Below, piece by piece: positions 1,956 through 30,539 of a stretch of DNA of 40,877 bases; positions within the stretch are counted from its first letter, which is position 1, and each line of letters opens with the position of its first letter. Below the pieces are notes generated by a model that was not told where the DNA came from, did no database searches, and saw only the letters and a program-made list of their open reading frames with translations. The DNA is from Halobaculum saliterrae (lineage in GTDB: Archaea > Halobacteriota > Halobacteria > Halobacteriales > Haloferacaceae). The stretch lies in the NCBI RefSeq assembly GCF_009831625.1, contig NZ_WUUS01000015.1, positions 1 through 40,877 of the forward strand, in the 5' to 3' direction. A program made the position numbers and the translations under genes.

Positions 1956-4235
1956 TCAGTCTGCAGGTTGAGCGTCAGTCGCTGGTTTCACACCTGGAAT
2001 CTCGGGGATGGACAGGTCAACGCGGCGGAGCAGCTGGGCGTTGATCGCGACGATTACTGTACTCAACGACATCAGGAGCGCACCAACGGCGGGTGACAGC
2101 AAGATCCCGATCGGCGCAAGGACACCAGCTGCGAGCGGAATCGCGAAGACGTTGTAGCCGGCGGCCCAGACGATGTTCTCCTGCATCTTCCGGTAGCTCG
2201 CCTTGCTGAGCTTCACCAGCCGAACGACGTCCATCGGGTTGTTCTGGACGAGGATAACGTCGGCCGACTGGACTGCCACGTCGGTGCCGCTCCCGATCGC
2301 GATGCCGACGTCGGCCCGTGTCAGCGCCGGCGCGTCGTTGACGCCGTCGCCGACCATCCCCACGAGCTTCCCCTGATCCTGGAGCTCCTGGACTTTCTTG
2401 TCCTTGTCCTCGGGGAGGACCTCCGCGAACACCGTGTCGATGCCCAGTTCGTCCGCGACAGCGTTAGCAACGTCCTGAGAGTCGCCCGTCAACATCGCCA
2501 CCTCGATATCGAGATCGTGGAGCGCGTCGACGACGGCGTAGCTTTCCTCGCGGATCACGTCAGCCATTGCGAAGGCTGCGATCAGCTCTCCGTCGCGAAC
2601 GAGATACACCACTGTCTGTGCGTTCTCACCGGCCTCATCAGCGAAGTGCTGGAGATGATCGGGAATCTCGCTATCGAGCTGGGTCAACAGGTTCGGCCCG
2701 CCGACGTACACCTCGTTTCCGTCGACGTTCGCACGAACTCCTCGGCCTTTGATCGCCTCGAAGGCGGTCGCGTCAGGAGGAGTTACGGCTCGCTCGCCGG
2801 CGGCCTCACGGATCGCTCGGGCGATCATGTGTTCGGAGTCACTCTCGACGGCTGCCGCCAGCCCGAGCGCATCGTCCTCGTCGACGCCGTCAACGGTCGC
2901 CATGTCGACGACGCCGTGTTCGCCCTCGGTAAGCGTCCCTGTCTTGTCGAAGATGATGGCGTCTAGATTCCGTGCGTCCTCCATCGCGATGCGGTCGCGA
3001 ACGAGCATCCCGTTGCGCGCCGCGAGGGAGGTGTTAATCGCGACGACCAGTGGGATAGCGAGCCCGAGGGCGTGTGGGCAGGCGATGACGAGCACCGTCA
3101 CGACTCGTTCGATGACGGTCGCGCCGAACGAGACCGCGACCGTCCACGCAATCGCGGTCACGACTGCCGCCCCGAGCGCGACATAGAACAGCCAGCCGGC
3201 CGCGCGGTCGGCCAACACTTGCGTCTTGGACTTGCTCTGCTGGGCTTCCTCGACAAGTCGCATGATGCCCGCGAGCGTCGTCTCCTCGCCAGTCGCACCG
3301 ACGCGCACCCGTAGACTCCCGTCGCCGTTGATCGTCCCGCCGATGACCTCGTCGCCGGGCTCCTTCGAGACCGGTTTCGACTCGCCAGTGATCATCGACT
3401 CCTCAACGTCCGAATCACCCTCTTCGACGATCCCGTCAGCAGGGACACTCGCGCCGGGCCGGACGAGCACGAGGTCGCCCTCGGTGAGTTCACTGACAGG
3501 AACCTCTTCGGTGTCGCCATCGGCGGTGATTCGCTCGGCGGTATCCGGCATCAGCTTCGCCAGTTCGTCCACCGCGCTGGAGGCCCGGCGTACGGACCGC
3601 ATCTCGATCCAGTGCCCGAGCAGCATGATGTCGATCAGCGTCACGAGCTCCCAGAAGAACGCTGACTGCGTTGGGAAGACCACACTCGCAAGACTGTAGA
3701 CGAACGCGACGGTGATCGCCATCGAGATCAGAGTCATCATCCCCGGCGACCGGTCTTTCAGCTCCGGGACTGCCATCTGGAGGAACGGCACCCCACCGTA
3801 CGCGAAGACGATGACGGCGAAGACGGGGTTGATCCACTCGCTCCCCGGGAACGCGGGCACGGAGAACCCGAGCCACGCCTGTAGCATTTCGCTGTACAGC
3901 AGGACTGGGATCGACAGGAGCGTCGAGACGAAGAACCGCCGGCGGAACATTTGCTCGTGGCCCTCGTGCATCCCACCGTGCCCCTCACCGTGGCCCTCGT
4001 GGGAACCGTGATCGTGGTCTCCCTCGTGTCCAGCGTGCTCGTGCTGGTCGTGGGGCACCGTCTCGCTCTCCGCAGCAGGCTGCGCCTCTTCTTCCAGTAA
4101 CTCCTGTTCTACCCGTTGCTCGTCTGACTGGGCGACCGCTTCATCGTGCTCGCTGTGTTCGTGCTGGTGACTGCTGTCGTCCTGCTGATGTTCCCCTCCC
4201 GGGGGATTCTCATTTGTATTGTTGTGGTCGTCCAT
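1956..4235 (-). CDS. copB: CopB-type P1B-3 copper-exporting ATPase
   Basis: A 759-residue heavy-metal P-type ATPase. Residues 1-95 are a His/Asp/Glu-rich cytosolic tail ([35 protein letters not shown]) with no CxxC HMA domain. The membrane metal site is CPH (386-388, [12 protein letters not shown]), which defines the CopB/P1B-3 class (Cu2+ or Cu+ export). Other family motifs are TGES (283-286), DKTGT (430-434, phosphorylated Asp430) and GDGVNDAP. The N-domain His-Pro dipeptide that contacts ATP reads SEHM rather than SEHP. A small HMA gene lies upstream on the same strand with a gap of 134 bp, so both may serve copper detoxification. The pump should sit in the cytoplasmic membrane with the His-rich tail inside. 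Confidence 0.95.
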
Positions 4236-4369: not shown

Positions 4370-4579
4370 TCAGGCGTGAGCGGTGTAGCCTGCGTCTTCG
4401 ATGGCCTCTACGAGAGCTGTGACATCTGCCTCACCCTCGACGCTCGCCTGGCCGCGTTCCCTATCGACGGTCGCGTCAGTCACGCCGGAGATCTCTTGGA
4501 GTGCTTCCTCAACTGTCTGCTCCCAGTGGCCGCACGACATGCCTTCCACGGTGATAGTTGTCGACACACAGGAAGACAT
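4370..4579 (-). CDS. HMA-domain protein with one metal Cys replaced by Trp
   Basis: A 69-residue single ferredoxin-like HMA domain, the size of CopZ/Atx1 copper chaperones. The metal loop is GMSCGHWEQT: Cys16 is present but the second Cys is Trp19 (codon TGG; TGC would restore CGHC). The rest is conserved (VEEALQEISGVTDATVDRERGQASVEG, ending EDAGYTAHA), so the fold should be intact. With one cysteine it probably cannot hold Cu(I) in the normal two-thiolate site. It lies just upstream of copB. It could be a decaying chaperone, a regulator, or a sequencing variant. The intact counterpart is the HMA gene at 10849-11052. Confidence 0.85.
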   Translation of the reverse strand: MSSCVSTTITVEGMSCGHWEQTVEEALQEISGVTDATVDRERGQASVEGEADVTALVEAIEDAGYTAHA

Positions 4580-4637: not shown

Positions 4638-4653
4638 ACTTTAGATTCAAAGT
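4638..4653. promoter_or_regulatory. Inverted repeat upstream of the HMA gene
   Basis: ACTTTAGATTCAAAGT has 5-bp inverted arms (ACTTT/AAAGT) and lies about 60 bp upstream of the minus-strand HMA start at 4579. Its outer TTT...AAA resembles the TTTGGAATCCAAA operator seen near copA, but the centre differs. It is possibly a regulator site; no more can be said from sequence. Confidence 0.3.
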
Positions 4654-4696
4654 GAAGCTTGTGCCACAACGAACCAGATCTCGGGGTCGAGGAGTC

Positions 4697-7171: not shown

Positions 7172-7355
7172 TCCTCTTCACCCGGAGAGACTAACTCATA
7201 ATAACCATCGCTCTTGGTTAGTGGCGTAGCTGGTAACACCTTTTGTAACTTCACAAAGTTTGGAGATAGTCGTCTCTCAGGGTTGGATAGTGGAGGATTC
7301 CTATGACGACCAACTGATGCCAAGCTATTTCCTGTAATGAATCGTACTCATTAAC

Positions 7356-7856
7356 ATGGGCACCAGGCCAACTGATCTCCGGATGGACATCGGACGGATT
7401 GCTGACGAGTCGGTCGCCCGTGTCGCACCTGACGCCACGGTTGCCGAGATCGCTCATACGATGATCTCCCAATCGCGGTGTGCCAGGTACGTGGTGGTCG
7501 AAGAATCCGATCAGATCTCTGGCATCATCACCGATCGAGACCTGATTGCTGACCTGCTCACCGAGGAGAGCGAGTTAAGCGTGCTCACAGCCGAGACGAG
7601 TGGAGACGACATACGAGCTGCTGACGTGATGACACCTGATCCACTCACTGTCCCAGCAGATGCTGAGATTCCAAAAGTCCTTAGACAAATGAACGAAGCG
7701 GGTGCTCGACACGTCCCGGTTGTTGAGGACGGGAGCGTTATCGGGATGATCACTCTGGACGATTTAATTACGCATGTTGCTGGCGAGAGCGCACACGTTT
7801 CAGCTCAGATGGATAACGTAGCAGGCATCATCCGAACAGAGTCTACGCACGATTGA
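7356..7856 (+). CDS. Tandem CBS-domain protein
   Basis: A 166-residue protein, or 157 if translation starts at ATG 7383 (MDIGRIADESV). Two CBS domains make one Bateman module: CBS1 at about 18-70 (VAPDATVAEIAHTMISQSRCARYVVV, ISGIITDRDLIADLL) and CBS2 at about 93-150 (DVMTPDPLTVPADAEIPKVLRQMNEAGARHVPVV, VIGMITLDDLITHVAGE). The T/S-x-x-D ribose/phosphate-binding pattern (ITDRD, ITLDD) is present in both, so it probably senses an adenine nucleotide. No effector domain is attached. CBS and UspA genes are frequent neighbours in haloarchaea, and here a decayed uspA lies just upstream on the other strand. Confidence 0.9.
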   Translation: MGTRPTDLRMDIGRIADESVARVAPDATVAEIAHTMISQSRCARYVVVEESDQISGIITDRDLIADLLTEESELSVLTAETSGDDIRAADVMTPDPLTVPADAEIPKVLRQMNEAGARHVPVVEDGSVIGMITLDDLITHVAGESAHVSAQMDNVAGIIRTESTHD

Positions 7857-7942
7857 AACGCTAGTTTGCTGACTCAAAGTTATTCGTATCGCTCATAGTT
7901 CTATGAAATCGCGGTTCCAGAAATAGACCCAGTTGAGAGAGA

Positions 7943-10777
7943 TTATCGCGTGAGGAGCCTCCTAAGGACGTAGTGAAGGATGCCCCCGTGTTCGATATAG
8001 GTCACGGCGGCCGGCGTACCGACCTGTGCCGTGACCGGGAACTCGACAGTCGACCCATCCGCACGCTCGGCGATAACGGTCAGTTTGTCCATCACGTCGA
8101 GTCCGTCATCGAGGCCGTGGATCGTGAAAACCTCCGACCCATCCAAACCGAGAGACTCCCACGAGTCGCCATCATCGAACTGCAGGGGGAGTACACCCAT
8201 GCCGACGAGGTTGTCGCGGTAGATGCGCTCGTAACTCTCGGCGATGGTTGCGCGAACACCGAGCAGGTCCGTCCCCTTCGCCGCCCAGTCCCGGCTGGAG
8301 CCGGTCCCGAACTCCTCGCCCGCCATCACGACGAGCGGGACTCCCTCTTCGCGGTAGCGCTGGCTGGCTTCGAAGACGGTCGTCTGCTCGTCGGTCGGGT
8401 GGTGGATCGTATAGCCACCCTCGACGTCGTCGAGCATCTCGTTCTCGATGCGGACGTTGGCGAACGTCCCCCGCATCATCACCTCGTGGTTGCCCCGACG
8501 CGCGCCGTACGTGTTGAACTCGTGTGGCTCGACACCGTGATCGAGCAGCCATTGACCCGCGGGGAGGTCGGGACCGAACGGGCCGGCTGGACTGATATGG
8601 TCGGTTGTAACGGTGTCCCCGAGCGTCAGCAGACAGCGTGCGTCCTCGATATCGGCGACGCCGGGTTTCTCGAGGGGGAAGTCCTGGAAGAACGGCGGTT
8701 CTCGGATGTATGTCGAGTCGTCGTCCCACTCGTAGACGTCACCACTTGGCGCGTCGAGAGCAGCCCACCGCTCGTCGCCCTCGAATACGGAGGCATACTT
8801 CTCCTCGAACATCTCGGGAGAGACGTTCTCGTGGATTGCTGCCTGCACGTCCGCTGTGTCGGGCCAGATGTCCGCCAGATACACCGGGTCACCTTCCTCG
8901 TCGGTGCCTAGCGGTTCGTTCTCGAGGTCGATGTCCATTCGGCCTGCGAGCCCGTAGGCGACGACGAGCGGCGGGCTCGCGAGGTAGTTTGCGCGGATCT
9001 TCGGGTGGATACGCGCTTCGAAGTTCCGGTTCCCGGAGAGGACGCTCGTCGTCCAGAGGTCGTGGTCGTCGATCGCCTGCTCGATGGGGTCGGGAAGCGG
9101 TCCGGCGTTACCGATGCAGGTGGTACAGCCGTAGCCGACGACGGCGTACCCGAGCTCTTCGAGATACGGAAGCAGCCCAGATTCTTCGAGATACTGCGTG
9201 ACGACGCGGCTACCCGGTGCGAGGCTCGTCTTGACGTACGGCGGGACGTCCAACCCTTTCTCGACGGCGTTCTGGGCGAGCAGTCCAGCAGCGATCATCA
9301 CCGACGGGTTCGACGTGTTCGTACAGCTCGTGATGGCGCTGACGAGGACATCTCCGTGTCCAATTTCGACCGTTTCACCGTCGAGATCGACTTCGACGCG
9401 TTTGGTTAACGGGTACAATTCCGATTCGGGTTCGACCTGAACGCCGCCGTCGGACCGGTGGTTCGACGAGGCATCGGTCGCTCCGCTCTCGATACCGCCG
9501 TCGGTCTCCGCACCAGCTGCACCACCCTCACCGAGCCACCGTTGCAAGGCGTCCTCGTCGACATCGTCGAGGTCGTCCTCGAACTCCCCGTGGAGAAGTC
9601 CCCGGAAGCTTTGTTTCACGTCTCCCATCGGAATCCGGTCCTGTGGCCGCTTGTGGCCGGCCAGACTCGGTTCGACAGTCGAGAGGTCGAACTCGACGAC
9701 CTCGGTGTATTCCGGTTCCTGTTCTCCGAACAGCCCTTGCGCTTCGAGGTACTCGCGAACGAGGTCGACGTGGTCGGGGTCACGCCCGGTGAGTTCGAGA
9801 TACTCGAGCGTCTGCTCGTCGACCGGGAACATACTGATCGTCGAGCCCTGTTCGGGCGCCATATTGGCGATCGTTGCCCGGTCGGGCACGGTGAGGTTCT
9901 GTACACCGGGGCCGAAGAACTCCACGAACCGGTCGACGACGCCGACCTCGCGGAGCCGTTCGGTAATGTGGAGCACGAGATCTGTCGCCGTCGCGCCTTC
10001 GGGTAATGTGCCTTCGAGACGGACGCCGACGACCTCGGGGAGTTTCATCGTGACCGGCTGACCGAGCATTGCCGCTTCCGCTTCGATGCCGCCGACGCCC
10101 CACCCGACCACACCGATGCCACCGATCATCGGGGTGTGGCTGTCCGTGCCGACGAGCGTGTCCGGCAGGAGCCAGTTCTCGCCGTTTTGCTCGCGGGCGT
10201 GGACGACCCGACCCAGATGCTCGAGATTCACCTGATGGACAATGCCCGTGCCCGGTGGGACGACGTTGAAGTTCTCGAAGGCGTTCTGCGCCCACTTGAT
10301 CGCGCGATACCTTTCGGCGTTTCGCTCGTACTCCAGTTCGACGTTCTTCTCGTAGGCGTCCTCGGAGTCGAAGTAGTCGACCTGGACGCTGTGGTCGATT
10401 ACGAGATCAATCGGAATCTCCGGTTCGACCAGGGTCGGGTCCCGTTCTTTGCGGTCGACTTCGGATCGAAGGGCCGCCAGGTCGACGACTGCGGGCACAC
10501 CGGTGAGATCCTGCAGGACGACTCGTGATGGAGAGAACGGAACCTCCGCGTCCGGTACGTCTGGCTCCCAGCCAGCAGCATTCCTGACGTCCGCCGCAGT
10601 GACAGTTTCGCCGTCGGCGTTCCGGAGCACTGACTCGAGAAGGATACGGATACTCACCGGGAGCGTATCGAGGTCACAGAGCCCCCGTTCTTCGAGTGCT
10701 CGAAGATCGGCCATCTTGTACGTCGTCCCGTCGACGTCGAGCTCGCGGACGGCATCGAACGGAAGTGTATCAGTCAT
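7943..10777 (-). CDS. acn: Aconitate hydratase (AcnA/IRP type)
   Basis: A 944-residue aconitase, which interconverts citrate and isocitrate in the TCA cycle. The [4Fe-4S] ligands are visible as Cys485 (ITSCTNTSNPSVM), Cys551 and Cys554 (GYGCTTCIGNAGP). Substrate-site motifs are DSHTPMIGGIGVVGWGVGGIEAE near the N terminus and GEEFGTGSSRDWAAKG in the C-terminal swivel domain. An acidic Gly/Ala/Asp-rich insert of about 40 residues (AAGAETDGGIESGATDAS region) sits before the first cluster cysteine. ATG 10777 (MTDTLPFDAVRELDVDG) is chosen over one 33 bp upstream because aconitase homology starts there. It stands alone between metal genes; its iron-sulfur cluster is a known target of copper poisoning. 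Confidence 0.97.
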   Translation of the reverse strand: MTDTLPFDAVRELDVDGTTYKMADLRALEERGLCDLDTLPVSIRILLESVLRNADGETVTAADVRNAAGWEPDVPDAEVPFSPSRVVLQDLTGVPAVVDLAALRSEVDRKERDPTLVEPEIPIDLVIDHSVQVDYFDSEDAYEKNVELEYERNAERYRAIKWAQNAFENFNVVPPGTGIVHQVNLEHLGRVVHAREQNGENWLLPDTLVGTDSHTPMIGGIGVVGWGVGGIEAEAAMLGQPVTMKLPEVVGVRLEGTLPEGATATDLVLHITERLREVGVVDRFVEFFGPGVQNLTVPDRATIANMAPEQGSTISMFPVDEQTLEYLELTGRDPDHVDLVREYLEAQGLFGEQEPEYTEVVEFDLSTVEPSLAGHKRPQDRIPMGDVKQSFRGLLHGEFEDDLDDVDEDALQRWLGEGGAAGAETDGGIESGATDASSNHRSDGGVQVEPESELYPLTKRVEVDLDGETVEIGHGDVLVSAITSCTNTSNPSVMIAAGLLAQNAVEKGLDVPPYVKTSLAPGSRVVTQYLEESGLLPYLEELGYAVVGYGCTTCIGNAGPLPDPIEQAIDDHDLWTTSVLSGNRNFEARIHPKIRANYLASPPLVVAYGLAGRMDIDLENEPLGTDEEGDPVYLADIWPDTADVQAAIHENVSPEMFEEKYASVFEGDERWAALDAPSGDVYEWDDDSTYIREPPFFQDFPLEKPGVADIEDARCLLTLGDTVTTDHISPAGPFGPDLPAGQWLLDHGVEPHEFNTYGARRGNHEVMMRGTFANVRIENEMLDDVEGGYTIHHPTDEQTTVFEASQRYREEGVPLVVMAGEEFGTGSSRDWAAKGTDLLGVRATIAESYERIYRDNLVGMGVLPLQFDDGDSWESLGLDGSEVFTIHGLDDGLDVMDKLTVIAERADGSTVEFPVTAQVGTPAAVTYIEHGGILHYVLRRLLTR

Positions 10778-10848
10778 AGTATCTACACCTAGGATTGGCA
10801 GTCGTATCAACCTCTCCCCGAATCCGATTCGACGAGAATCGAGATTTG

Positions 10849-11052
10849 TTACACAGAGGCATCGTATCCAGCGTCTTCGACCGCAGTCACGAGTTTGTCC
10901 GGTTCAACGGACCCCTCCACGGTCGCGGATTCTGCGTCGCGATCCGCAGTAGCGGAAGTAACCCCCTCAACTTCTTCGAGTGCCTCTTCGACGCTCTGCT
11001 CGCAATGTTCACAGGTCATCCCTTCGACGATGATTGTCTGAGTCATATCCAT
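10849..11052 (-). CDS. CopZ-like copper chaperone (HMA domain)
   Basis: A 67-residue single HMA domain with an intact metal loop GMTCEHCEQS (Cys14, Cys17) and the C-terminal EDAGYDASV of Cu(I) chaperones. It should bind one Cu(I) in the cytosol and hand it to CopA. It starts at ATG 11052 or ATG 11046 (MTQTIIVEG); a TATA-like ATAGAATACT (complement about 11070-11079) is 23-29 bp upstream, so transcripts are probably leaderless. It is divergent from the Lrp-TRASH regulator and shares with copA an upstream TTGGAATCCAA palindrome. In Halobacterium salinarum a comparable chaperone is controlled with the copper ATPase by an Lrp-TRASH regulator. Confidence 0.92.
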   Translation of the reverse strand: MDMTQTIIVEGMTCEHCEQSVEEALEEVEGVTSATADRDAESATVEGSVEPDKLVTAVEDAGYDASV

Positions 11053-11089
11053 TCGTAGATAGGGGCGAGTATTCTATGTGGTTTTCTGC

Positions 11090-11100
11090 TTGGAATCCAA
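11090..11100. promoter_or_regulatory. Palindromic copper operator, site 1
   Basis: TTGGAATCCAA lies between the chaperone and the divergent Lrp-TRASH regulator, about 20 bp upstream of the chaperone TATA box. The same 11 bases occur again upstream of copA at 11780-11790. This is the expected size and symmetry for a dimeric Lrp/AsnC-type helix-turn-helix protein. Confidence 0.6.
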
Positions 11101-11180
11101 TGTCATCGCAGTCCAAGATCACCGATTTCGAAGGTATATCGTGGACAACAATAATGTATCCTGCGAGACGAAGCGGTCGT

Positions 11181-11771
11181 ATGCGCAATCTGGACGAAAC
11201 CGACTTGGAAATCCTCTCGTTACTCGCCGATGACGCCCGCCGCCCGTTCAGCGACATCGGCGAGGAGGTCGGCCTGTCGGGGCCAGCCGTTTCCGACCGG
11301 GTCAAGCGATTACAGGAAGCTGGCATCATCAACAACTTCACGATTGATGTCAACCGGGCCCATCTCCGGGCTGGCGTTCCGGTATTTATCCAGGCCGAAA
11401 TCGGCTCAGCATCGCTGGAGACCGCCTGCAATCAAGTTCGGGAATCCGATGGCGTTGAACACGTTTTCACGACCTCAGAAGGGGATCTTTGGTTCTATGC
11501 CCGTGTCGAAGCCCAGAACGTTCGTCAGTGGGTAGATGGGCTCTTCAACGAGGTCGATGTAGCGGATTACACCGTCACGCTAATCGACGAGATCGAATGG
11601 ACGCCGTCCGTCGATGGCGTCGAATTTGCCCTCACCTGTGCCGAATGTAACAACACCGTCGATAACGAGGGTGAGACGACGCGAATCGACGGCGAGATCT
11701 ATCACTTCTGTTGTCCATCCTGTCTCGCGCGGTTCGAAGACCGGTATCAGCGACTCGAAGAGGGAGCATAA
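11181..11771 (+). CDS. Lrp/AsnC-TRASH copper-responsive regulator
   Basis: A 196-residue regulator. Residues 1-60 are the AsnC-type helix-turn-helix (NLDETDLEILSLLADDAR, IGEEVGLSGPAVSDRVKRLQEAGII) and 63-140 the RAM-like ligand region (VEHVFTTSEGDLWFYARVE). The C-terminal TRASH zinc-finger-like domain has Cys153, Cys156, Cys177/178 and Cys181 (FALTCAECN, YHFCCPSCLARFEDRY). TRASH binds Cu or Ag and similar metals. This layout matches CopR/CopT of Sulfolobales and VNG1179C, the copper regulator of Halobacterium. ATG 11181 follows a TATA-like GTATATC at 11134-11140; an in-frame ATG at 11154 would add nine residues. It lies between its two likely targets, the chaperone and copA. Confidence 0.92.
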   Translation: MRNLDETDLEILSLLADDARRPFSDIGEEVGLSGPAVSDRVKRLQEAGIINNFTIDVNRAHLRAGVPVFIQAEIGSASLETACNQVRESDGVEHVFTTSEGDLWFYARVEAQNVRQWVDGLFNEVDVADYTVTLIDEIEWTPSVDGVEFALTCAECNNTVDNEGETTRIDGEIYHFCCPSCLARFEDRYQRLEEGA

Positions 11772-11778
11772 CGCGCTC

Positions 11779-11791
11779 TTTGGAATCCAAA
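11779..11791. promoter_or_regulatory. Palindromic copper operator, site 2 (upstream of copA)
   Basis: TTTGGAATCCAAA is a perfect 13-bp palindrome around one central base, eight bases after the regulator's stop codon. A TATA-like CCTAAACC (11834-11841) lies about 53 bp downstream and 28 bp before the copA ATG. The distance suits an activator. It is identical over 11 bp to site 1 at 11090. Confidence 0.6.
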
Positions 11792-11865
11792 ATTTTCACC
11801 GGTCGAGAACCCACCCCTCGAAGCAGCAAATCGCCTAAACCTAGACCCCGTATAGTAGACTAAGT

Positions 11866-14472
11866 ATGACAAGCCAGACAATCCATCTCGATATCACGGG
11901 GATGTCCTGTGCCAACTGTTCGGCGACGATCCAGGACACTCTCGAATCCCTCGACGGGGTGTCGGAGGCAGACGCGAATTTCGCCACCGACGAGGGCTCC
12001 GTCACCTACGATCCCGACGAGGTATCGCTCAAAGAAATCTACGAGGCGATCGACGAAGCTGGCTATGGTGCCGTCTCGGAGACGGTGACGATCACTATCT
12101 CCGATATGACGTGTGCCAACTGCGCCGAGACAAACGAAACAGCCCTCGAGGAGACAGCAGGCGTCATCAACGCCGAGGTCAACTACGCGACCGACGAGGC
12201 ACAAGTCACCTACAATCCAGCAGAGGTGTCGCTCGATGCGCTGTACGATGCCATAGAGGACGCTGGCTATTCGCCCGTTCGCGAAGAGGATTCCGACGAG
12301 GACTCGGGCCAAGACGCACGTGATGCTGCCCGGCAGGCCGAGATCCGGAAACAGCTCCGGCTCACCCTGTTCGGCGCGGTGCTGTCCGCCCCCTTGCTGT
12401 TCTTCCTCGTCGAGAAGTTCTTCCTCGGGGGCGGACTCATCCCCGAGAGCGTTTTTGGTATTGAGTTCGGCTGGGTTGAGTTCCTGCTGGCGACGCCCGT
12501 CCAGGCCGTGCTTGGCTGGCCGTTCTACAAGAACTCCTACAAGGCGATCGTAAAGAACGGCCGCGCCAACATGGACGTGCTCATCGCGCTGGGTTCGACC
12601 ACCGCGTATGTCTACTCCGTGGCCGTCCTCTCCGGGCTGATCGCGGGCGGACTGTACTTCGACACGGCCGCGCTCATCCTCGTGTTCATCACGCTCGGCA
12701 ACTACCTCGAAGCCCGCTCGAAAGGGCAGGCCGGCGAGGCGCTCCGCAAACTGCTGGAGATGGAGGCCGAGACGGCAACTGTCGTCGACGAGGACGGCAA
12801 CGAGGAAGAGATTCCGCTCGAGGACGTCGACGTCGGCGACCGGATGAAGGTCCGGCCCGGCGAACAGATTCCGACCGACGGCGTGGTCGTCGATGGACAG
12901 TCCGCGGTCGACGAGTCGATGGTCACCGGCGAGTCCGTCCCCGTCGAGAAAGGGGAAGGTGACGAGGTTGTCGGGTCCACCATCAACGAGAACGGCGTGC
13001 TCGTCGTCGAGGCCACGAAGATTGGAGAAGACACCGCCCTCCAGCAGATCGTCCAGACCGTCAAGGAGGCACAGTCCCGCCAGCCCGAGATCCAGAACCT
13101 CGCTGACCGTATCTCCGCGTACTTCGTCCCTGCTGTCATCGCGAACGCGCTCCTGTGGGGCGTTGTCTGGTTCCTGTTCCCCGAGGCGCTGGCTGGCTTC
13201 GTCGACTGGCTCCCGCTGTGGGGGCAAGTCGCCGGCGGCCCCGCCCCCGCCGGCGGGACGGTCACCGTCTTCGAATTCGCGATCATCGTGTTCGCGTCGG
13301 CCGTCCTGATCGCCTGCCCCTGTGCACTCGGACTGGCGACGCCTGCCGCGACGATGGTCGGCACGACTATCGGCGCGCAGAACGGCGTCCTGTTCAAGGG
13401 CGGCGACATCCTCGAACGCGCGAAGGACGTCGACACGGTCGTCTTCGACAAGACGGGCACGCTCACCGAGGGTGAGATGGAGCTGACCGACGTCGTCGCC
13501 TTCGATACCAACGGCGATCCGGTTGCCGATGGTGGCGGGCCAGCGGCGGACGGTGGCCAGTTGACCGCTCGTGAACAGCTCTCCGAGGACGACGTGCTTC
13601 GGCTCGCCGCAACGGCCGAGAGCGGCAGTGAACACCCGCTCGCTCGCGCTATCGTCGAGGGCGCGGAAGAGCGCGGCCTCGACGTGACTGAGCCCGACGA
13701 CTTCGAGAATGTCCCCGGCCACGGAATCCGGGCGACGGTCGGCGACAGCGAAGTGCTGGTCGGCAACCGGAAGCTGATGCGGGATAACGGTATCGACCCG
13801 TCACCGGCCGCTGAGACGATGGAGCGACTGGAAAACGAAGGGAAGACGGCGATGCTCGTCGCCTACGAGGGCGAGCTCGTGGGCGTCGTCGCCGACGCCG
13901 ACACGGTCAAAGAGAGCGCGAAGGACGCAGTGAGCGCGCTTCAGGAGCGCGGCGTCGACGTGATGATGATTACGGGTGACAACGAGCGGACCGCCCGTGC
14001 CGTCGCCGAACAGGTCGGTATCGATCCGGGGAACGTCCGCGCAGAGGTCCTTCCCGAGGACAAGTCCAACGCCGTCGACAGTATTCAGGACGAGGGCCGG
14101 CAGGCGATGATGGTCGGCGATGGCGTTAACGACGCGCCGGCGCTCGCAGTCGCACACGTCGGGACAGCCATCGGCTCCGGCACGGATGTCGCGATCGAGG
14201 CGGCGGACGTGACGCTGATGCGCGACGACCCGCTGGACGTCGTGAAGGCCATCCGCATCTCGGACGCGACACTCCAGAAGATCAAGCAGAACCTCGTGTG
14301 GGCGCTGGGCTACAACACGGCGATGATTCCGCTGGCGTCGCTCGGCCTCCTGCAGCCGGTGCTCGCTGCGGCGGCAATGGCGTTCTCGTCGGTCTCGGTG
14401 CTGACGAACAGCCTGCTGTTCCGGCGGTACACTCCGGACCACGACTACAAGCTCCTCGGATTCCTTCGCTGA
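11866..14472 (+). CDS. copA: CopA-type P1B-1 Cu(I)-exporting ATPase with two HMA domains
   Basis: An 868-residue copper-exporting ATPase. HMA1 carries GMSCANC (Cys15, Cys18) and HMA2 DMTCANC (Cys83, Cys86). An acidic linker ([15 protein letters not shown]) leads to eight predicted helices. The membrane site is CPC (484-486, [12 protein letters not shown]), diagnostic of Cu(I) pumps. The catalytic motifs TGES, DKTGT (from Asp528), [12 protein letters not shown] with the canonical His-Pro, and [10 protein letters not shown] are all present. A Gly/Asp-rich insert ([12 protein letters not shown]) lies in the nucleotide domain. It is transcribed in the same direction as the Lrp-TRASH regulator, 94 bp downstream, from its own operator-bearing promoter. 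It should receive Cu(I) from the chaperone at 10849-11052. Confidence 0.97.
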
Positions 14473-14489
14473 ACACCACCTCCGTATCA

Positions 14490-14714
14490 ATGTCGAATAT
14501 TTCCCGGCAAACAGTTCGGAGGTACCTCGTCGAGACTGCCGGTAGCGAACCGACTTACCTCCGGGCTTGCGAGATCGCCGGCGACCTTGACGGGTCTCCG
14601 AAGGCCGTTGCACAGTACCTCAGCCAACTTCAGGACGAACTCACGAACGTCTCACTCGAACAGTGGGGGCGGTCGAAGAGTACGACGTGGCGATTGGAGG
14701 TGCGCGAGTTGTGA
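14490..14714 (+). CDS. Small winged-helix-like protein
   Basis: A 74-residue protein (SRQTVRRYLVETAGSEPTYLR, ACEIAGDLDGSPKAVAQYLSQLQDEL, NVSLEQWGRSKSTTWRLEV) that reads as a helix-turn-helix plus a beta wing. It resembles small haloarchaeal DUF7123-type proteins, from memory. It starts 18 bp after copA, and its TGA overlaps the GTG start of the DUF63 gene by four bases (GTGA), so the pair is translationally coupled and may read through from copA. DNA binding is inferred from the fold only. Confidence 0.75.
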   Translation: MSNISRQTVRRYLVETAGSEPTYLRACEIAGDLDGSPKAVAQYLSQLQDELTNVSLEQWGRSKSTTWRLEVREL

Positions 14715-15712
14715 GTACCGTCACGCGACGCGTCGAGACCGCCCTCCCGGAGACCGGTTCACGTGAGTGGTGGGTGCTGTACCTGTTGGCCCCGCTCGTG
14801 CTTGTCGGCGCGGGCCTCCTTGCATTCCCGACGGTGGTCTACGACCGGTTCATCTGGCAGTATCTCTGGGGACCAGTCGTGGCCGACGCGGCCAGCCAGC
14901 CAGTCACGCACGAAGGAATTCGTGGGGTCCGGGGCTACAACGCGGTGAATACGGTGAGCTACCTCGCAGCGGTCGTATACAGTCTCCCTGGACTACGAGT
15001 GTATCTCGACCAGCTCGACGTCACGTTCGACGCACGACTCGCCTACGGATTTGCTCCGATCATTATCGCCGGCGGGGCAATGCGCGCCCTCGAGGATATC
15101 AGCCTGCTCGGCGACTACGCGGTGTGGTTCATCACGCCATCGATTTACTTCGTCGTCACCGCTGTCACCGTCCTCGCGCTCGGCGTCGGCGCACTCGCAC
15201 GTGATCGGAATATCGGTTCTATCCCGCTAACAGTCGGGCTTGTCGGATCGGTCTGGGCTGTCGGTGCCGTCGGGTGGGCAGTTTGGCACGGCCTCTCGAC
15301 GTCGACCCCACTCCGCCTGTGGGTTCCTGTCGCGACGACGGGAATTGCTCTCAGCGTGACAGCGCTCTACTACTGGGGCGCGAGTTTCGTCGATGTCCCA
15401 CACCTCCGACACCCGCTGATCCTGCTGGCCGTCTTTGGGCAGCTGTGGGACGCAGCACAGAATCTCATCGGTGTGACGTTCCTCGGTTTCTCCCCAAAAA
15501 TGGTCATCACGAATGTCGTATACGAAGCGACCGGCTTCTCCGGATCGACATTCGTCCTCAAATTCCTCGTGACTCTCGGCATCGTGTGGTATCTCGCTGA
15601 TGCGAAAGACGAGATGAATCACACCTGGTGGTGGCTTATGACGTTCTTCATCGGGGCAATCGGACTCCCGATGGGCGTTCGCGGGTCACTTCGGATGCTG
15701 CTGGGGGCCTAA
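14711..15712 (+). CDS. DUF63-family multi-pass membrane protein
   Basis: A 333-residue membrane protein with about eight to nine helices. It matches the archaeal DUF63 pattern: YDRFIWQYLWGPVVADA after the first helix, GYNAVNTVSYLAAVVY, an Arg-Glu-Asp motif after a helix (GGAMRALEDISLL), and a final LRMLLGA. The GTG start at 14711 is chosen because it overlaps the upstream stop and because residues encoded before it belong to the previous gene's frame. DUF63 has no established function. Coupling to a small helix-turn-helix protein just after copA suggests a membrane partner, which is inference only. Confidence 0.85.
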   Translation: MSTVTRRVETALPETGSREWWVLYLLAPLVLVGAGLLAFPTVVYDRFIWQYLWGPVVADAASQPVTHEGIRGVRGYNAVNTVSYLAAVVYSLPGLRVYLDQLDVTFDARLAYGFAPIIIAGGAMRALEDISLLGDYAVWFITPSIYFVVTAVTVLALGVGALARDRNIGSIPLTVGLVGSVWAVGAVGWAVWHGLSTSTPLRLWVPVATTGIALSVTALYYWGASFVDVPHLRHPLILLAVFGQLWDAAQNLIGVTFLGFSPKMVITNVVYEATGFSGSTFVLKFLVTLGIVWYLADAKDEMNHTWWWLMTFFIGAIGLPMGVRGSLRMLLGA

Positions 15713-15921
15713 CAGTAGGCTCAATAATTGGGATCCGGGTGAATAGTCTCCGAGATGAGGACTTGAAACTGTTATCGCGGGCAGTTCCCCATAGCACTCC
15801 ATTTCGAAAAACTAGTTTCCTGCTCGGAACTGAAAGTCACCCCCCGTCGTACCCGAATCCGTCCTCAATACGCAGGAAAGGTCGACGTACATTAGGTTCC
15901 CCCAAGCCAAGTTGGGAATAT

Positions 15922-17729: not shown

Positions 17730-18079
17730 CTGCTACTCGCACAGCGCGAGGAAGAATCGAATCATCACGTCGACGCTTGAGCGTCCGCCGAACTGGGTTG
17801 ACCTGTGAGACCTTCACCGCCCGTGATTATCGTGTAGTGGATTGTGACTCATAGATTTAGAATTGGTTCGGGCTCCAGTATTTATATAGGGCACAGACAG
17901 GAATCGGTTGGTATACTCGAACGATAGTTCGGTATTGTGAGGTACTAATCATTGATTCTGGGGTCGGACAAGCCAAACCGTACAGTACGGCTCGAATCCC
18001 TATGTATTCCGACTTTGGATTACTAAGAGCAAATTGCTTGGTTCAGGCCCTCGTACCTATGATGTGGGGTGAAACCGGA
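17730..18079 (+). promoter_or_regulatory. 350-bp intergenic region with strong TATA box and two dyads
   Basis: No protein gene is evident. A TATA box TTTATATA at 17881-17888 should start transcription near 17910. Just downstream is the inverted repeat CGAAC-GATA-GTTCG, extended by ATAC/GTAT (17913-17935). At 17978-17990 CCGTACAGTACGG is a perfect 13-bp palindrome. TTTGGAT at 18014-18020 matches half of the copper operator. Either the YHS gene at 18080 has an unusually long leader, or a short RNA is made here, or the dyads are protein-binding sites. Confidence 0.45.
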
Positions 18080-18220
18080 ATGGCAACTGACCCAGTCTGT
18101 GGAATGGACGTCGATAAAAGTGATGCGGCGGCCACGGCTGAGTACGACGGACAGACGTACTACTTCTGTGCCGAAGGTTGTAAGGAGACGTTCACCTCGG
18201 CACCGGAAGACTACGTCTAA
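18080..18220 (+). CDS. Single YHS (TRASH-like) domain protein
   Basis: A 46-residue protein that is nothing but a YHS domain: DPVCGMDVDK, a short hairpin (ATAEYDGQTYYFC) and CAEGCKETF. Three Cys (VCGM, YYFC, EGCK) form the metal site shared with TRASH domains. The ATG at 18080 (MATDPVCG) is used; upstream in-frame ATGs at 18002 and 18059 add residues with no domain character. It is likely a small cytosolic Cu/Zn carrier or storage protein. It lies 96 bp upstream of the second Lrp-TRASH regulator. Confidence 0.88.
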   Translation: MATDPVCGMDVDKSDAAATAEYDGQTYYFCAEGCKETFTSAPEDYV

Positions 18221-18316: not shown

Positions 18317-18919
18317 ATGACCCAACCAGAAATTGACGACACGGATCGCGAAATTCTCCGTCTCTTAGCGGAGAACGCGAGACAGCCATACAGCACTATT
18401 GCTGAGGCAGTAAATCTTTCAGCCCCGTCCGTTTCAGCACGGGTCCGTCAGCTTGAGCAAGAAGATGTCATTCGTCGATTCACCGTAGATCTCGACCTCA
18501 CACAGTACGAAAACCGGATACGCGTCATGGTACGCCTCCAGCCTGAACTCGGAAAGACTGACTCTCTTCGGGAATCGATCCTCGAGACCCCATCCGTAGA
18601 ACACGTATTCACAACTGCGGAGGGCGAGATCGTGGCTGTTGCGACGCCGCCGCGGGCGACGGTCGGAAACTGGGCGCAGCAAAGTCTACCTCTGAATGAC
18701 GTGCGGCGTTACGATGTGCAACTGCTATCGAGCGCTGCGCACTCAGCGTATGCCGAGGGGGCTGAATCCGCACTCAAATGTGTAAATTGCGGATCCTCCG
18801 TCGGCGAAGACGGACTAGCTACCCGTGTCGGTGGTTCACTCCGGCAGTTTTGCAGTGACAGCTGTGAAACAGCATATAGGGAACAGTACACAGAAAGCCA
18901 AGAGAAATCTGATGCTTAG
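18317..18919 (+). CDS. Second Lrp/AsnC-TRASH metal regulator
   Basis: A 200-residue paralogue of the regulator at 11181. The helix-turn-helix is at 1-55 (IDDTDREILRLLAENAR, IAEAVNLSAPSVSARVRQLEQEDVI), the ligand region carries VEHVFTTAEGEIVAVATPP, and the TRASH domain has Cys155, Cys158, Cys179 and Cys183 (LKCVNCGSS, QFCSDSCETAYREQY). The recognition helix (SAPSVSARVRQL) differs from SGPAVSDRVKRL of the first copy, so it may read another site. A C-rich 96-bp gap separates it from the YHS gene. Placement suggests it controls the YHS gene and the ABC exporter downstream. Confidence 0.9.
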   Translation: MTQPEIDDTDREILRLLAENARQPYSTIAEAVNLSAPSVSARVRQLEQEDVIRRFTVDLDLTQYENRIRVMVRLQPELGKTDSLRESILETPSVEHVFTTAEGEIVAVATPPRATVGNWAQQSLPLNDVRRYDVQLLSSAAHSAYAEGAESALKCVNCGSSVGEDGLATRVGGSLRQFCSDSCETAYREQYTESQEKSDA

Positions 18920-18976
18920 AGTCTAGCATTAGCCGTGTACTCATTTCCTGATTGCTCACGGGTTTGCTGCTAATAG

Positions 18977-18989
18977 TTTGGATTTGAAA
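18977..18989. promoter_or_regulatory. Degenerate copper-operator-like site before the ABC operon
   Basis: TTTGGATTTGAAA keeps the left half (TTTGGA) and the final AAA of the TTTGGAATCCAAA operator, about 40 bp before the ABC ATPase start at 19028. It is weak evidence on its own and is reported because the nearest regulator is a paralogue of the copper regulator. Confidence 0.25.
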
Positions 18990-19027
18990 CAGTAATCGCA
19001 GTGAATTAGGAGTGTGTGTATACACCT

Positions 19028-19759
19028 ATGGAAGCGTCCACAACTACCACAGGTGAAGCTACAAGCAGCAAGGTACTCGTCCGTGCTAATGAGATTGAAA
19101 AAACGTACGGATCAAGGCTTCCATTTAAGCGGTCAGTGACCGTCCTGACCGGTGCCGATCTCGAAATTCGGACGGGGGAAATCGTCGGAATCGTCGGCGC
19201 GAACGGATCGGGCAAATCCACGCTCATGAACATCCTCGTCGGCGTCCTTGAGCAGGATGCCGGAACAGTCGAACGGACGGGAACCGTTGGCTGGTGTCCG
19301 CAAGACCCACTACTTTACGACCGCTTGACGGTCGGAGAGACGTTCCGACTGTTCGGTGCCGGATACGGAATGACCGCCGAAGAAATCGACGAGGCCAAAC
19401 ACCGCTTGGCGTCAAAACTCGATTTCGAGCAGTACCTTGACTACCGAATCGACCAACTCAGCGGTGGTAACCGGCAGAAAATCAATCTCAGTATCGCCCT
19501 GATGCACGACCCGGACGTCCTCATGCTGGACGAGCCCTACACCGGATTCGACTGGGAGACGTATCTCACGTTCTGGGATCTCGCCGAGGAACTCGCTGCC
19601 GACGGAACAGCCGTCACGATGATTTCACATCTGATCGAGGAGCAAAGTCGTCTCGACCGCATTTACGAGGTTCGTGACGGCCAGGTCTACGATGTGACTG
19701 ACCAAGAAGGCGAGACTGATACAACGGCCGGTGAACGGGGGGAGGAGACCGATGAATAG
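19028..19759 (+). CDS. ABC transporter ATP-binding protein
   Basis: A 243-residue ABC ATPase: Walker A GANGSGKST, Q-loop region VGWCPQDPLLYDRLTV, signature LSGGNRQK (a Gly-Gly-Asn variant of LSGGQ), Walker B VLMLDEP, and switch His in MISHLIEE. The Arg/Asp-poor, 240-residue form is typical of ABC-2 type exporters. ATG 19028 is used; another ATG four codons upstream at 19016 is possible. Its end overlaps the first permease start by eight bases (19752-19759), so the three genes form a tight operon. Substrate is unknown; the neighbourhood suggests metal or lipoprotein export similar to NosF, which is inference. Confidence 0.93.
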   Translation: MEASTTTTGEATSSKVLVRANEIEKTYGSRLPFKRSVTVLTGADLEIRTGEIVGIVGANGSGKSTLMNILVGVLEQDAGTVERTGTVGWCPQDPLLYDRLTVGETFRLFGAGYGMTAEEIDEAKHRLASKLDFEQYLDYRIDQLSGGNRQKINLSIALMHDPDVLMLDEPYTGFDWETYLTFWDLAEELAADGTAVTMISHLIEEQSRLDRIYEVRDGQVYDVTDQEGETDTTAGERGEETDE

Positions 19760-20489
19760 GGTTCGAACGGGGATCCGGGCGAACGTCTCCACATTCCTCA
19801 GAACCCCTCTGAATGTTGTCCTGGCACTCCTCCTCCCGGTCGTCGTTATCGAAGGCTGGGGGCAAGCGATGGCAGGGTTGCCGACCATGCCAACGGTCGA
19901 GGCGATTCCGATCGAGCTAGGTCGCCTTCTCGGCGCGATATTCGGGGTCGCCATCATCGCCGGCCTGATGGGACTCGCCCAGATGATTAGTGCGCGTGCG
20001 GCCGATCGGCGACTCGTTCAGACAGGTTATCCACCCCGAACACTGCTTGCGACTCGATTAGCGACGCTCGGCGGAGTCACCGTCGTCGTGGCTGCCGTAA
20101 ACTACGGCGTTCTCTTGCTGACGATTTCACCGGAAGCCCCTGTCCTGACGTTCGTATTCCTCGTCCTTGCCGGCCTCGTCTATGCGTTTCTCGGCGCGCT
20201 CGTCGGGGCACTCCTTCCGCGACTGTTCGAAGGCTCGCTCGTCGTGGTGTTCCTCGCGATGATGGATGCGTTCCTCAGTGGCGACAGCCCGCTGGCCGCC
20301 GATGTTCCCGAGTTCGTGGAGTACTTCCCGCTCTATCAGCCGAAGGAACTCCTTCAGGAGGCGATGTTCCAAGGGACATATACGACGGGTGACCTCGGCT
20401 TCGTCGCCGGATACCTGCTAGTCCTGCTCGTGCTCGTCACCGCAGTGTTCGGAGTGACGATGCGCACCAGTGGTGGGTGGTCCGCATGA
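19752..20489 (+). CDS. ABC-2 type permease, first subunit
   Basis: A 245-residue membrane protein with six predicted helices, among them PLNVVLALLLPVVVIEGW, LLGAIFGVAIIAGLMGLAQMI, TLGGVTVVVAAVNYGVLLLT, VLTFVFLVLAGLVYAFLGALVGALL and YLLVLLVLVTAVFGVTM. The cytosolic loop ARAADRRLVQTGYPPRTLLATRL resembles the coupling region of ABC-2 permeases. It overlaps the ATPase gene upstream and the second permease downstream (ATGA at 20486-20489). With the next gene it probably forms a heterodimeric channel. Confidence 0.88.
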   Translation: MNRVRTGIRANVSTFLRTPLNVVLALLLPVVVIEGWGQAMAGLPTMPTVEAIPIELGRLLGAIFGVAIIAGLMGLAQMISARAADRRLVQTGYPPRTLLATRLATLGGVTVVVAAVNYGVLLLTISPEAPVLTFVFLVLAGLVYAFLGALVGALLPRLFEGSLVVVFLAMMDAFLSGDSPLAADVPEFVEYFPLYQPKELLQEAMFQGTYTTGDLGFVAGYLLVLLVLVTAVFGVTMRTSGGWSA

Positions 20490-21238
20490 ACCGTACGACA
20501 ACGGCGTTCTCGATCGGCATCAAAGAACAGGCACGAAACTACGTCCTCGTCGCTCTACTGGTCGTTTTACCGGTCTCGTTCATCACGTTGGCGTTCGCAG
20601 TCACCCAGGACGTCGAGATGCCGGTTCGGACGCTCGTCGACGGTGAGACGGTGACGGTGATGCGGGGGATGCCTGAGGTCCACGGCGTGATCATGACGCC
20701 GATTACGAGCGCCCTCATCGCTGGACTCGCCGGGTTGTTCCTGATGCGAGAAGCCAAGGACACGGACGGTCGTCTGGCAGTCGCCGGCTATCGTGCACGA
20801 CAGGTAATCGCTGCCCGGTTTGGGGTCCTCGCAGCAATCACGCTCATCGTCACCGGCGTCTCAGTCGGTGTAATGCTCATCGATTTCCAGCCTGAGCATC
20901 TCTGGTGGTTCGTCGCAGCGATGCTCGTCATCTCGGTCACGTATGGTCTCATCGGGATGCTCGTGGGGGCTGTCCTCGACCGCCTAGCCGGGATGTGGCT
21001 AATGCTGATTCTCCCGATGCTCGATATCGGACTCTTCCAGGATCCGCTATTCATCCAGTCCGAGCCCGACTGGTGGATGAAACTATTCCCCGGCTATTGG
21101 CCCGTCCGTGTGATGGTCGATACTGGACTCACAACGGACGTAGATACGGCCCTCTCGTTGGTGTGGGCTACTGGATACCTCCTCCTCGTGGCCGTCCTCA
21201 CAATCGGCGTATACTACCGAGCCACACGGGCGAAGTGA
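20486..21238 (+). CDS. ABC-2 type permease, second subunit
   Basis: A 250-residue membrane protein built like the preceding permease: an N-terminal helix (YVLVALLVVLPVSFITLAF), an external loop with DVEMPVRTLVDGETVTVMRGMPEVHG, a helix plus coupling loop (MREAKDTDGRLAVAGYRARQVIAARF), and four more helices. The loop sequence is parallel to the ADRRLVQTGYPPRT region of its neighbour, so the two are diverged paralogues. ATG 20486 is chosen because it gives the four-base stop/start overlap. Confidence 0.88.
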   Translation: MNRTTTAFSIGIKEQARNYVLVALLVVLPVSFITLAFAVTQDVEMPVRTLVDGETVTVMRGMPEVHGVIMTPITSALIAGLAGLFLMREAKDTDGRLAVAGYRARQVIAARFGVLAAITLIVTGVSVGVMLIDFQPEHLWWFVAAMLVISVTYGLIGMLVGAVLDRLAGMWLMLILPMLDIGLFQDPLFIQSEPDWWMKLFPGYWPVRVMVDTGLTTDVDTALSLVWATGYLLLVAVLTIGVYYRATRAK

Positions 21239-22127: not shown

Positions 22128-22353
22128 GATGACTGAATCATTCTGAAGTGGTTAGCTAGGTGTGATACCGGTGGAAGACCCCGCACGTAATCCAATACGT
22201 GCTTGTCGTTTACCCCCATTACTACTCGCAATCATATGCTGTGTCGGGGGTTGTCTCTTTGATTCGAAGGATATGTACTGACGATTGTTTGGCTTCGATA
22301 CCTCGATTCGATGAGGAGGTGTTCAAACAGGTGAATCCGGGTTTAAGGGATAG

Positions 22354-29899: not shown

Positions 29900-30207
29900 G
29901 AGAGTGAACCGGTAATGCGGTTGTACAACTCAACAAACAGGTAGGTGAATACACCAGTAATGACCACTGCTTCAAGGATTCCAGCGATAGTCCCAACGAG
30001 TGTTGGCGTGAAGAACAAATGCCATTGCTTCATCATCTCGACCCCACCTTCGTAGACTCCGATCGCCCCGAAGAGGCCGAGTAAAAGCATGATCACAGCT
30101 GCGACCGTAGCTGCTGCCGCAGCAAATGGAAGTGGATCGAGATGCGGTGATACTCGGCTAGAGCTCGGGGTTTCACGAACGCCGGTTTGCTCAGGTGGTG
30201 TGCTCAT
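29896..30207 (-). CDS. Small two-helix membrane protein
   Basis: A 103-residue protein from ATG 30207 (MSTPPEQTGVRETPSS). A disordered Ser/Pro N terminus leads to helix 1 (FAAAAATVAAVIMLLLGLFGAIGVY) and helix 2 (FFTPTLVGTIAGILEAVVITGVFTYLFVELYN). Its TGA overlaps the start of the NmrA-like gene. The upstream 48 codons of open frame are Trp/Cys/Arg-rich and unlikely to be translated. Haloarchaeal proteins of this shape often carry DUF5676, but I cannot confirm that here. Confidence 0.72.
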   Translation of the reverse strand: MSTPPEQTGVRETPSSSRVSPHLDPLPFAAAAATVAAVIMLLLGLFGAIGVYEGGVEMMKQWHLFFTPTLVGTIAGILEAVVITGVFTYLFVELYNRITGSLS

Positions 30208-30539
30208 ATCAGATACTACGAGCGGGTAATTCACTGAGTTTGTGGATACGATACCAAACCGGCTACATCGAACTGCTACCAGCCACAATATGAAGAGAGA
30301 AAAGCACCACGGCACGGGGTTTAATCCATTACTGAACCCTTCTCTTAGCACGATCCAGCCCGATGAGTCAGCATGACAGCACGAAGGCCCCCAGAATGAG
30401 ATTAGATTCGAACGTAGAACCGGTACAAAGCTTGGATGTCAAAAGTATTTCCGAGGGAGACCACAAGAATAGAAGACACAATCGCATTGAATAGGGAGCC
30501 CGTAATGAGTACTGAAGGCAGATCTCACGGAGGGAAACT
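30208..30539. promoter_or_regulatory. 332-bp divergent intergenic region, AT-richer than surroundings
   Basis: No gene is supported. The right end carries GGAGGG at 30530-30535, a Shine-Dalgarno for the SHOCT gene at 30540, so that mRNA has a leader, unlike most genes here. No clear palindrome or TATA box stands out. Confidence 0.35.

Follow-up and report, generated by a model that had tools for sequence, protein, structure and literature searches.

Two identical palindromes flank a regulator gene

The window, i.e. the whole stretch of DNA analyzed here (40,877 nucleotides), is all of contig 15 of the Halobaculum saliterrae genome (3,775,766 bases, 21 contigs). Genes for a copper chaperone (copZ), a regulator and a copper ATPase (copA) lie side by side in it, together with the following sites and promoter elements, for which scores of a matrix (PWM) and of a core promoter model that was trained without the window are given.

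10849..11052, minus strand: copZ, HMA copper chaperone (PF00403, 3e-20)
11060..11085, minus strand: copZ core promoter with CATAGA and CCCCTA (core 15.3; operator 14.7, in register)
11087..11103: predicted operator, center 11095, palindrome at 11090-11100 (PWM 14.7)
11118..11134: 31-bp partner of the copZ site, half-site TTCGAAG (PWM 0.3 at exactly +31)
11181..11771, plus strand: regulator with Lrp/AsnC HTH and C-terminal TRASH domain, CopR-type, HVO_1752 family
11777..11793: predicted distal operator of the copA promoter, center 11785, palindrome at 11780-11790 (PWM 18.9)
11809..11825: proximal partner of the copA site, half-site CTCGAAG (PWM only -9.1)
11827..11852, plus strand: copA core promoter with BRE-like CAAA, weak TATA-like CTAAAC and CCCGTA (score 25.7)
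11866..14472, plus strand: copA, copper P1B-type ATPase with two HMA domains (PF00122, PF00403 twice; TIGR01511 over cut-off)

Scanning of the window revealed the 11-bp palindrome TTGGAATCCAA on the plus strand at 11090-11100 and at 11780-11790. These are the only two exact matches in the whole genome, with no third, and the pattern read backwards has no match in the same 3,775,766 bases. Both copies are non-coding, one in the gap between copZ (minus strand) and the regulator gene (plus strand) and the other in the gap between the regulator gene and copA (both plus strand), which confirms the claim of a preliminary description that the same palindrome precedes the copper chaperone and copA. 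The gene between them encodes, as had also been proposed, an Lrp-TRASH regulator of the copper type. An Lrp/AsnC winged HTH is found at residues 4-45 (PF13404, 3e-16) and a TRASH domain at residues 150-196 (PF24273, named after Haloferax HVO_1752; 2e-26), with CAEC...CCPSC in the translation. Between the two domains there is no match to the RAM domain (PF01037) at 0.001, and NCBIfam Lrp models match residues 4-129 below their cut-offs. In VNG1179C from Halobacterium salinarum, the RAM is reported to be one of the most strongly diverged and probably without function (PMC4236453).

The identity of the two copies is peculiar to the H. saliterrae genome. In the cluster of the window's own regulator, which comprises 45 loci, some of them taken twice from two collections, only the window has TTGGAATCCAA at both places, 24 loci show the arrangement TTAGAATCCAA/TTGGAATCCAA, and in one locus the degenerate form TTNGAWTCNAA is absent from both places. 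In a search of 60 relatives the exact 11-mer gave 45 matches across 26 genomes (control, 2), at least two of which (G024, G080) adjoin a regulator from the PF24273 search.

The conserved element is a degenerate palindrome

Regulator loci were collected from 42 named loci, from PF24273 matches in 194 genomes of the class, every one of which (194/194) has such a match, and from the genome of H. saliterrae itself; the PF24273 part consists of 30 short loci and 100 fetched stretches. The 172 loci kept, each with a regulator, formed 61 clusters at 80% protein identity, and this clustering removes those duplicates that represent one place from two collections. Five loci (three copies of the window region and two non-haloarchaeal matches, L073 and L074) were left out of the count. 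The gene order regulator, copZ and copA is widely conserved, and in 38 of the 61 clusters copA or copZ is next door (linked clusters), leaving 23 unlinked ones.

When both gaps were considered, TTNGAWTCNAA occurred in 18 of the 38 linked clusters and ranked first of 256 palindromes of the same shape, the runner-up among the other 255 reaching 2/38. It was found in 1/23 unlinked clusters and in the coding DNA of the same loci in 0/38 linked clusters. Among 6144 palindromes with other gaps it was still at the top (18); next came an extension of itself (17) and a copZ codon pattern (12). In the upstream-only set, CCNTCGANGG ranked above it (12/38 vs. 10/38). This candidate was rejected as a rival motif and read as copZ codons, since 9 of the 12 matches lie inside called copZ coding sequence; the other three have the same spacing, in places without a called copZ. 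The perfect form TTGGAWTCCAA is found among the 38 linked clusters in the window's representative only, and 1/38 rules out the exact 11-mer as the conserved unit. Thus the conserved object is the degenerate palindrome TTNGAWTCNAA together with its position. The preliminary description had looked to haloarchaeal copA and copZ promoters for an enrichment of the 11-mer; when these were scanned, the enrichment proved to belong to the degenerate motif, and the exact 11-mer showed no conservation.

A symmetric 17-bp matrix with the consensus ACTTTSGAWTCSAAAGT was derived. Its best match exceeded 10 bits in 86.8% of 68 promoter regions, which are the training regions, vs. 0.9% of shuffles. A site above 10 is present in 36 of the 38 linked clusters (the two without are L164 and L156) vs. 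6 of the 23 unlinked ones. The matrix and the core model were built from the loci that give most of the counts reported here, except for the held-out counts. Among 41 other genomes, all of which have copA (41/41), the best 30 copA loci served as a held-out set, held out of the PWM alone and not of the core model. Twenty-three of these best 30 promoters scored above 10 bits, with 0.20 expected from shuffles, and 7 stayed below. In 12 of the 30 the locus lacks such a regulator, and 9 of those 12 nevertheless carry a site above 10 (0.14 expected), so the element belongs to copA and not to the tail of the regulator gene.

Sites occur in pairs spaced by 31 bp

The sites keep constant positions relative to the start codon (about -77 or -46) and are accompanied by a weaker partner at a distance of 31 bp. 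In 23 of 27 clusters the best copA-gap site lies at -75 to -82; of the 23 sites that pass in the held-out set (best 30 of 41 genomes), 16 are at -76 to -82. In regulator gaps the best site is at -49 to -56 in 27/37 and at -81 to -87 in 9/37. Counted from copZ, it is at 76-80 in 15/22 clusters and at 43-49 in 5/22; the copZ-side site is missing in 2/22. Start codons were assigned from alignments with the window proteins; in several cases (L206-L208) the GTG chosen is apparently wrong, and a few of these positions are shifted as a result. The best offset for a partner was +31 in the copA gap, in the held-out set and also in the regulator gap, where -31 came second. As 31 was the best offset in all sets, the sites form pairs 31 bp apart of which one member is usually strong and the other degenerate, i.e. 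a phased array of palindromes three helical turns apart whose partner is often degenerate. An additional operator-like site, located over the CCCSTA element described below at +62 from the distal site, was considered and discarded (mean -20.2 for 21 promoters; a small bump at offset 61 has a mean of -13.9 for the same number).

In the window, the operator-like site at 11087..11103 belongs to two promoters, being proximal (about -43/-49) in that of copZ and distal (-86) in that of the regulator gene, and its partner position at +31 holds the strong site in most relatives. In the case of copA, the palindrome is the distal site, and the half-site CTCGAAG follows 31-32 bp downstream, adjoining the BRE; the right half of this partner is kept as TcgaAgg in an alignment of 59 copA promoters. 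In general, the proximal site is centered about 20 bp from the TATA-like box and abuts a BRE-like AA. The core model places the TATA-like hexamers at about 11072-11077 (minus strand) and 11835-11840 (plus strand), resulting in TATA-to-site distances, center to center, of about 20 bp for copZ and 52 bp for copA. These are close to the 20 and 53 bp given previously, which differ because copZ has the perfect palindrome at its proximal site and copA at its distal site, and the proposed difference of about three helical turns holds in that the promoters have two sites 31 bp apart.

The copA site starts 9 bp past the stop codon of the regulator gene, as would suit inverted repeats that act as RNA hairpins or terminators, for example at the end of the regulator transcript at 11780. 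However, the dyad has a one-base center, the distance from site to copA is kept where no regulator gene precedes, and positions -3/+3 are unpaired in most of the 74 sites above 12 bits (G-G 20 and C-C 12 vs. G-C 11 and C-G 9). A role at the RNA level is extremely improbable and was rejected on account of the non-pairing bases at -3/+3.

A core promoter with a poor TATA box is located at a fixed distance

The alignment of 59 copA promoters combines 29 from regulator loci with the 30 held-out ones (best 30 of 41 genomes), and one of them (L123) is visibly misaligned. It reads cTTTggATtCnAAanT - spacer - ttTcgaAgg - gcAAncCGcnTgAAnnnGGanCCCGTA. A core promoter, consisting of a weak TATA and then CCCSTA, is thus found at a fixed distance from the operator-like sites. 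The TATA-like part is poor (CTTGAA, CATGAA, CTAAAC). At CCCSTA, about -15 to -10, three columns are C in 97%, T in 98% and A in 93% of the 59 promoters, and the element has no match to the operator matrix. A YR step occurs 34-35 columns past the core start, and the start codon follows CCCSTA by 7-25 nt, mostly 9-14.

Searching the 41 genomes with the 24-base core pattern, allowing up to 2 mismatches, gave 19 places, and the pattern read backwards gave 22, so the number alone is unremarkable. What speaks for the core is its placement, since 17 of the 19 are just upstream of copA, though the pattern was partly derived from the same copA promoters whose placement was counted. In the genome of H. 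saliterrae, up to 3 mismatches yielded two places, as did the reversed control. One is the copA promoter of the window and the other precedes a chromosomal copA on contig 7 (66% identity), where a perfect core promoter with CCCCGTA (G000:C7:75532-75556, L219) is accompanied by an in-register proximal site of only 0.7 and by a best operator-like site of 5.5 that is 2 bp off register. The chromosomal copA may be regulated differently from the copA of the window.

Candidate promoters of other copper genes in the window

Applied to the whole window, the matrix alone gave 6 matches above 12 bits (0.70 expected). The core model gave 7 promoters above 12, against 0.8 expected, and most of these have an in-register operator; 6 exceeded 15, with none in ten simulated windows. 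PWM matches at 10465 and 13506 are inside coding sequence and were taken as chance. The genes and candidate elements outside the copZ-copA region are as follows.

1956..4235, minus strand: His-rich copper P-type ATPase, which we take to be CopB-like (TIGR01511 over cut-off; CPH motif in translation)
4370..4579, minus strand: copZ2, second HMA chaperone (NF047957 below cut-off)
4604-4579, minus strand: candidate copZ2-copB core promoter (core 19.0, in register with operator)
4638..4654: predicted copZ2-copB operator, distal site, center 4646 (PWM 13.4)
18012..18028: predicted operator of the YHS protein gene, proximal site, center 18020 (PWM 14.6)
18030-18055, plus strand: candidate core promoter of the YHS protein gene (core 9.9)
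18080..18220, plus strand: 46-aa YHS-domain (YHS/TRASH) small protein, presumably a possible CopM-like chaperone (PF04945, 6e-17)
18975..18991: operator-like site, center 18983, 45 bp upstream of the ABC transporter operon (PWM 15.3)
19028-21238: ABC transporter operon (PF00005, PF12698)
21372-22127, minus strand: copper protein, presumably halocyanin-like (PF00127)
22221-22196, minus strand: candidate core promoter before the halocyanin-like gene (core 18.1)
22255..22302: two operator-like sites, centers 22263 and 22294, exactly 31 bp apart (PWM 9.1, 5.7)
30399..30446: two operator-like sites, centers 30407 and 30438, exactly 31 bp apart (PWM 13.1, 4.1)
30479-30504, plus strand: candidate core promoter before the SHOCT-like gene (core 28.4)
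30540-30908, plus strand: SHOCT-like membrane protein, its SHOCT-like tail read from the sequence

Since the core of copZ2 extends over the first ATG, translation probably starts at the GTG at 4567. The core model gave no score at the site before the ABC transporter operon, which, with an unnamed gene at 29896-30207 and an amidohydrolase at 27372, is among the weaker candidates. The SHOCT-like protein had no family match in the profile search, and two homologues with the same composite promoter are present in other loci. In all, 161 composite promoters were found in 140 other loci, spread over 105 of them: 99 belong to copA, 40 to copZ, 9 to copZ2-like and 2 to SHOCT-like genes, and several of the remaining 11 look like copZ in the wrong frame. 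Markov controls of a third of the loci gave none. An ArsP_1-type permease fused to a YHS/TRASH domain is encoded at 25650-27044 (minus strand).

Other genera (Haloarcula japonica, Halosegnis rubeus, Halorussus halobius) have copies of the region 7295-15713, with acnA, copZ, the regulator gene, copA and flanking DNA, that are about 88-93% identical to it at the DNA level, and 80% or more of a queried 3.8 kb was found in 16 of 55 matching plasmid records. To judge from these matches, the region is a portable copper island carrying an aconitase gene. Such close copies share everything, as would be the case if the conservation reflected the common ancestry of a recently copied plasmid block, or chance. 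However, the counts were made on clusters below 80% protein identity and on 30 copA loci at 61-87% copA identity (best 30 of 41), and the motif is absent from the coding DNA of the same loci, making chance or ancestry a scarcely credible explanation.

Predicted mode of regulation

Haloarchaea have been known genetically to possess a copper activator since 2006. Deletion of VNG1179C in H. salinarum abolishes the copper induction of yvgX, the orthologue of copA, and the level of VNG1179C itself is unchanged with copper (PMC1779511, PMC3551603). That circuit, with yvgX (VNG0700G) and VNG0702H, likewise comprises an Lrp-TRASH activator, a copper P-type ATPase and HMA chaperones (PMC3551603, PMC1779511, PMC4236453) and presumably is the same orthologous system as that of the window. 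A VNG1179C motif derived by ChIP is drawn in Figure 1B of PMC4236453; within the portions of text searched, a stated operator for a haloarchaeal copper regulator was not found.

We consider it probable that the two palindromes are operators, within an operator array, of the copper-activated Lrp-TRASH (CopR-type) regulator encoded between them. Regulator dimers would occupy sites spaced 31 bp, or three helical turns, on one face of the DNA, with centers some 45 and 76 bp before the presumed transcription start, the proximal one abutting the BRE, and we infer that the DNA is wrapped by a regulator oligomer. Given the poor TATA box of the core promoter, transcription would depend on the regulator to recruit or position TBP/TFB. 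In H. saliterrae, copper bound by the TRASH domain would switch the DNA-bound oligomer so that copZ and copA are turned on together, and the other copper genes of the island (copZ2-copB and those for the YHS protein, the halocyanin and the SHOCT-like protein) would be co-induced.

Real copper operators might have another binder, such as the second Lrp-TRASH regulator of the window (18317-18919), a paralogue on contig C8 or a general regulator. The genome holds 6 PF24273 matches, at least two of which, besides the regulator studied here, are in Lrp-like proteins, so a paralogue could be the binder; similarly, the site in 9 of the 12 regulator-free copA loci (best 30 of 41 genomes) means that the binder can be encoded elsewhere. 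However, the recognition helix PAVSDRV of the window regulator is almost invariant in site-bearing loci whereas 18317-18919 has APSVSARV, the site is missing in 17 of the 23 clusters of paralogues away from copA and copZ, and the locus of the C8 paralogue has no site above 6.4. Another binder is therefore unlikely. The gene at 18317-18919 sits between the YHS protein gene and the ABC transporter operon.

With the encoded regulator as the preferred binder, it could still be a repressor released by copper, like CopR of Thermococcus onnurineus as cited in PMC7830388, and the regulator-proximal site is near the regulator's own promoter and may serve to repress that gene. Against this, the copA and copZ sites are upstream of BRE/TATA and not over them, as for archaeal Lrp activators (PMC2995911), knock-outs in H. 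salinarum and Pyrococcus furiosus show activation, and a weak TATA suits activation. Repression of copA and copZ is, in our view, quite unlikely.

Activation has close parallels. With archaeal Lrp activators, the BRE is preceded at a distance of a few bases by a dimer site, and further sites are located upstream, at spacings of two or three turns (PMC2995911). Ss-LrpB of Sulfolobus solfataricus, among others, likewise binds imperfect palindromes in phase, two or three turns apart, and activates from a site just upstream of the BRE (PMC2995911), but it is not a metal regulator, and the haloarchaeal system keeps one spacing and one core promoter throughout an order. CopR of P. furiosus is likewise an Lrp-TRASH protein, a copper activator whose semi-palindrome lies directly upstream of the BRE; it has targets with an atypical TATA, multiple phased footprints and an octameric state (PMC7830388). 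Its consensus TTNNCAWWWTGNNAA was found in 0 of the 38 linked clusters, and in P. furiosus copA and copR are divergent (PMC7830388), whereas in the window copZ and the copR-like gene are divergent and the latter is in tandem with copA. In Sulfolobus a regulator with a C-terminal TRASH domain (CopT/CopR), the chaperone CopM and the ATPase CopA are similarly side by side, but CopM has a TRASH domain whereas the chaperone of the window is an HMA protein (cited in PMC3600143). The layout of the window fits the activation mechanism of archaeal Lrp proteins and P. furiosus CopR.

More tentatively, haloarchaeal copper genes might possess a promoter type of their own, about 100 bp long and almost rigid, in which a 31-bp operator ladder, a poor TATA and CCCSTA (about -15 to -10) are read as one unit by an Lrp-TRASH oligomer, the same unit controlling a portable copper island; a downstream contact or a dedicated TFB/TBP is possibly involved. 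Such a promoter may be likened to those of bacterial MerR-type regulators, which depend on bad promoter spacing.

The layout recurs before copA in many related species. A defined operator, phase and core promoter would make copper regulons predictable across Halobacteria. The phased layout offers a simple phasing test of how archaeal Lrp proteins activate transcription as well as a design for a copper-inducible promoter, and the little-known SHOCT-like and YHS proteins can be assigned to a likely copper response. According to a 2022 survey of Haloferax mediterranei, the metal-responsive regulators annotated there have no relation to copper (PMC9240420).

Related sites elsewhere in the genome

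In the whole genome of H. saliterrae, TTNGAWTCNAA occurs at 12 places in all. Nine stretches around candidates outside the window showed no recognisable copper gene in their largest reading frames. Candidates on contigs C12 and C13 were rejected because the palindrome there is a different and fuller one that goes with DtxR-like regulators. These palindromes, CGTTCGAWTCGAACG, are located at G000:C12:78675 and G000:C13:33382 (L214, L215), in or beside the DtxR-like regulator genes, which, read by eye, adjoin apparent metal-binding transport proteins. Apparently, CGTTCGAWTCGAACG is another type of metal operator, and its core and the copper consensus overlap.
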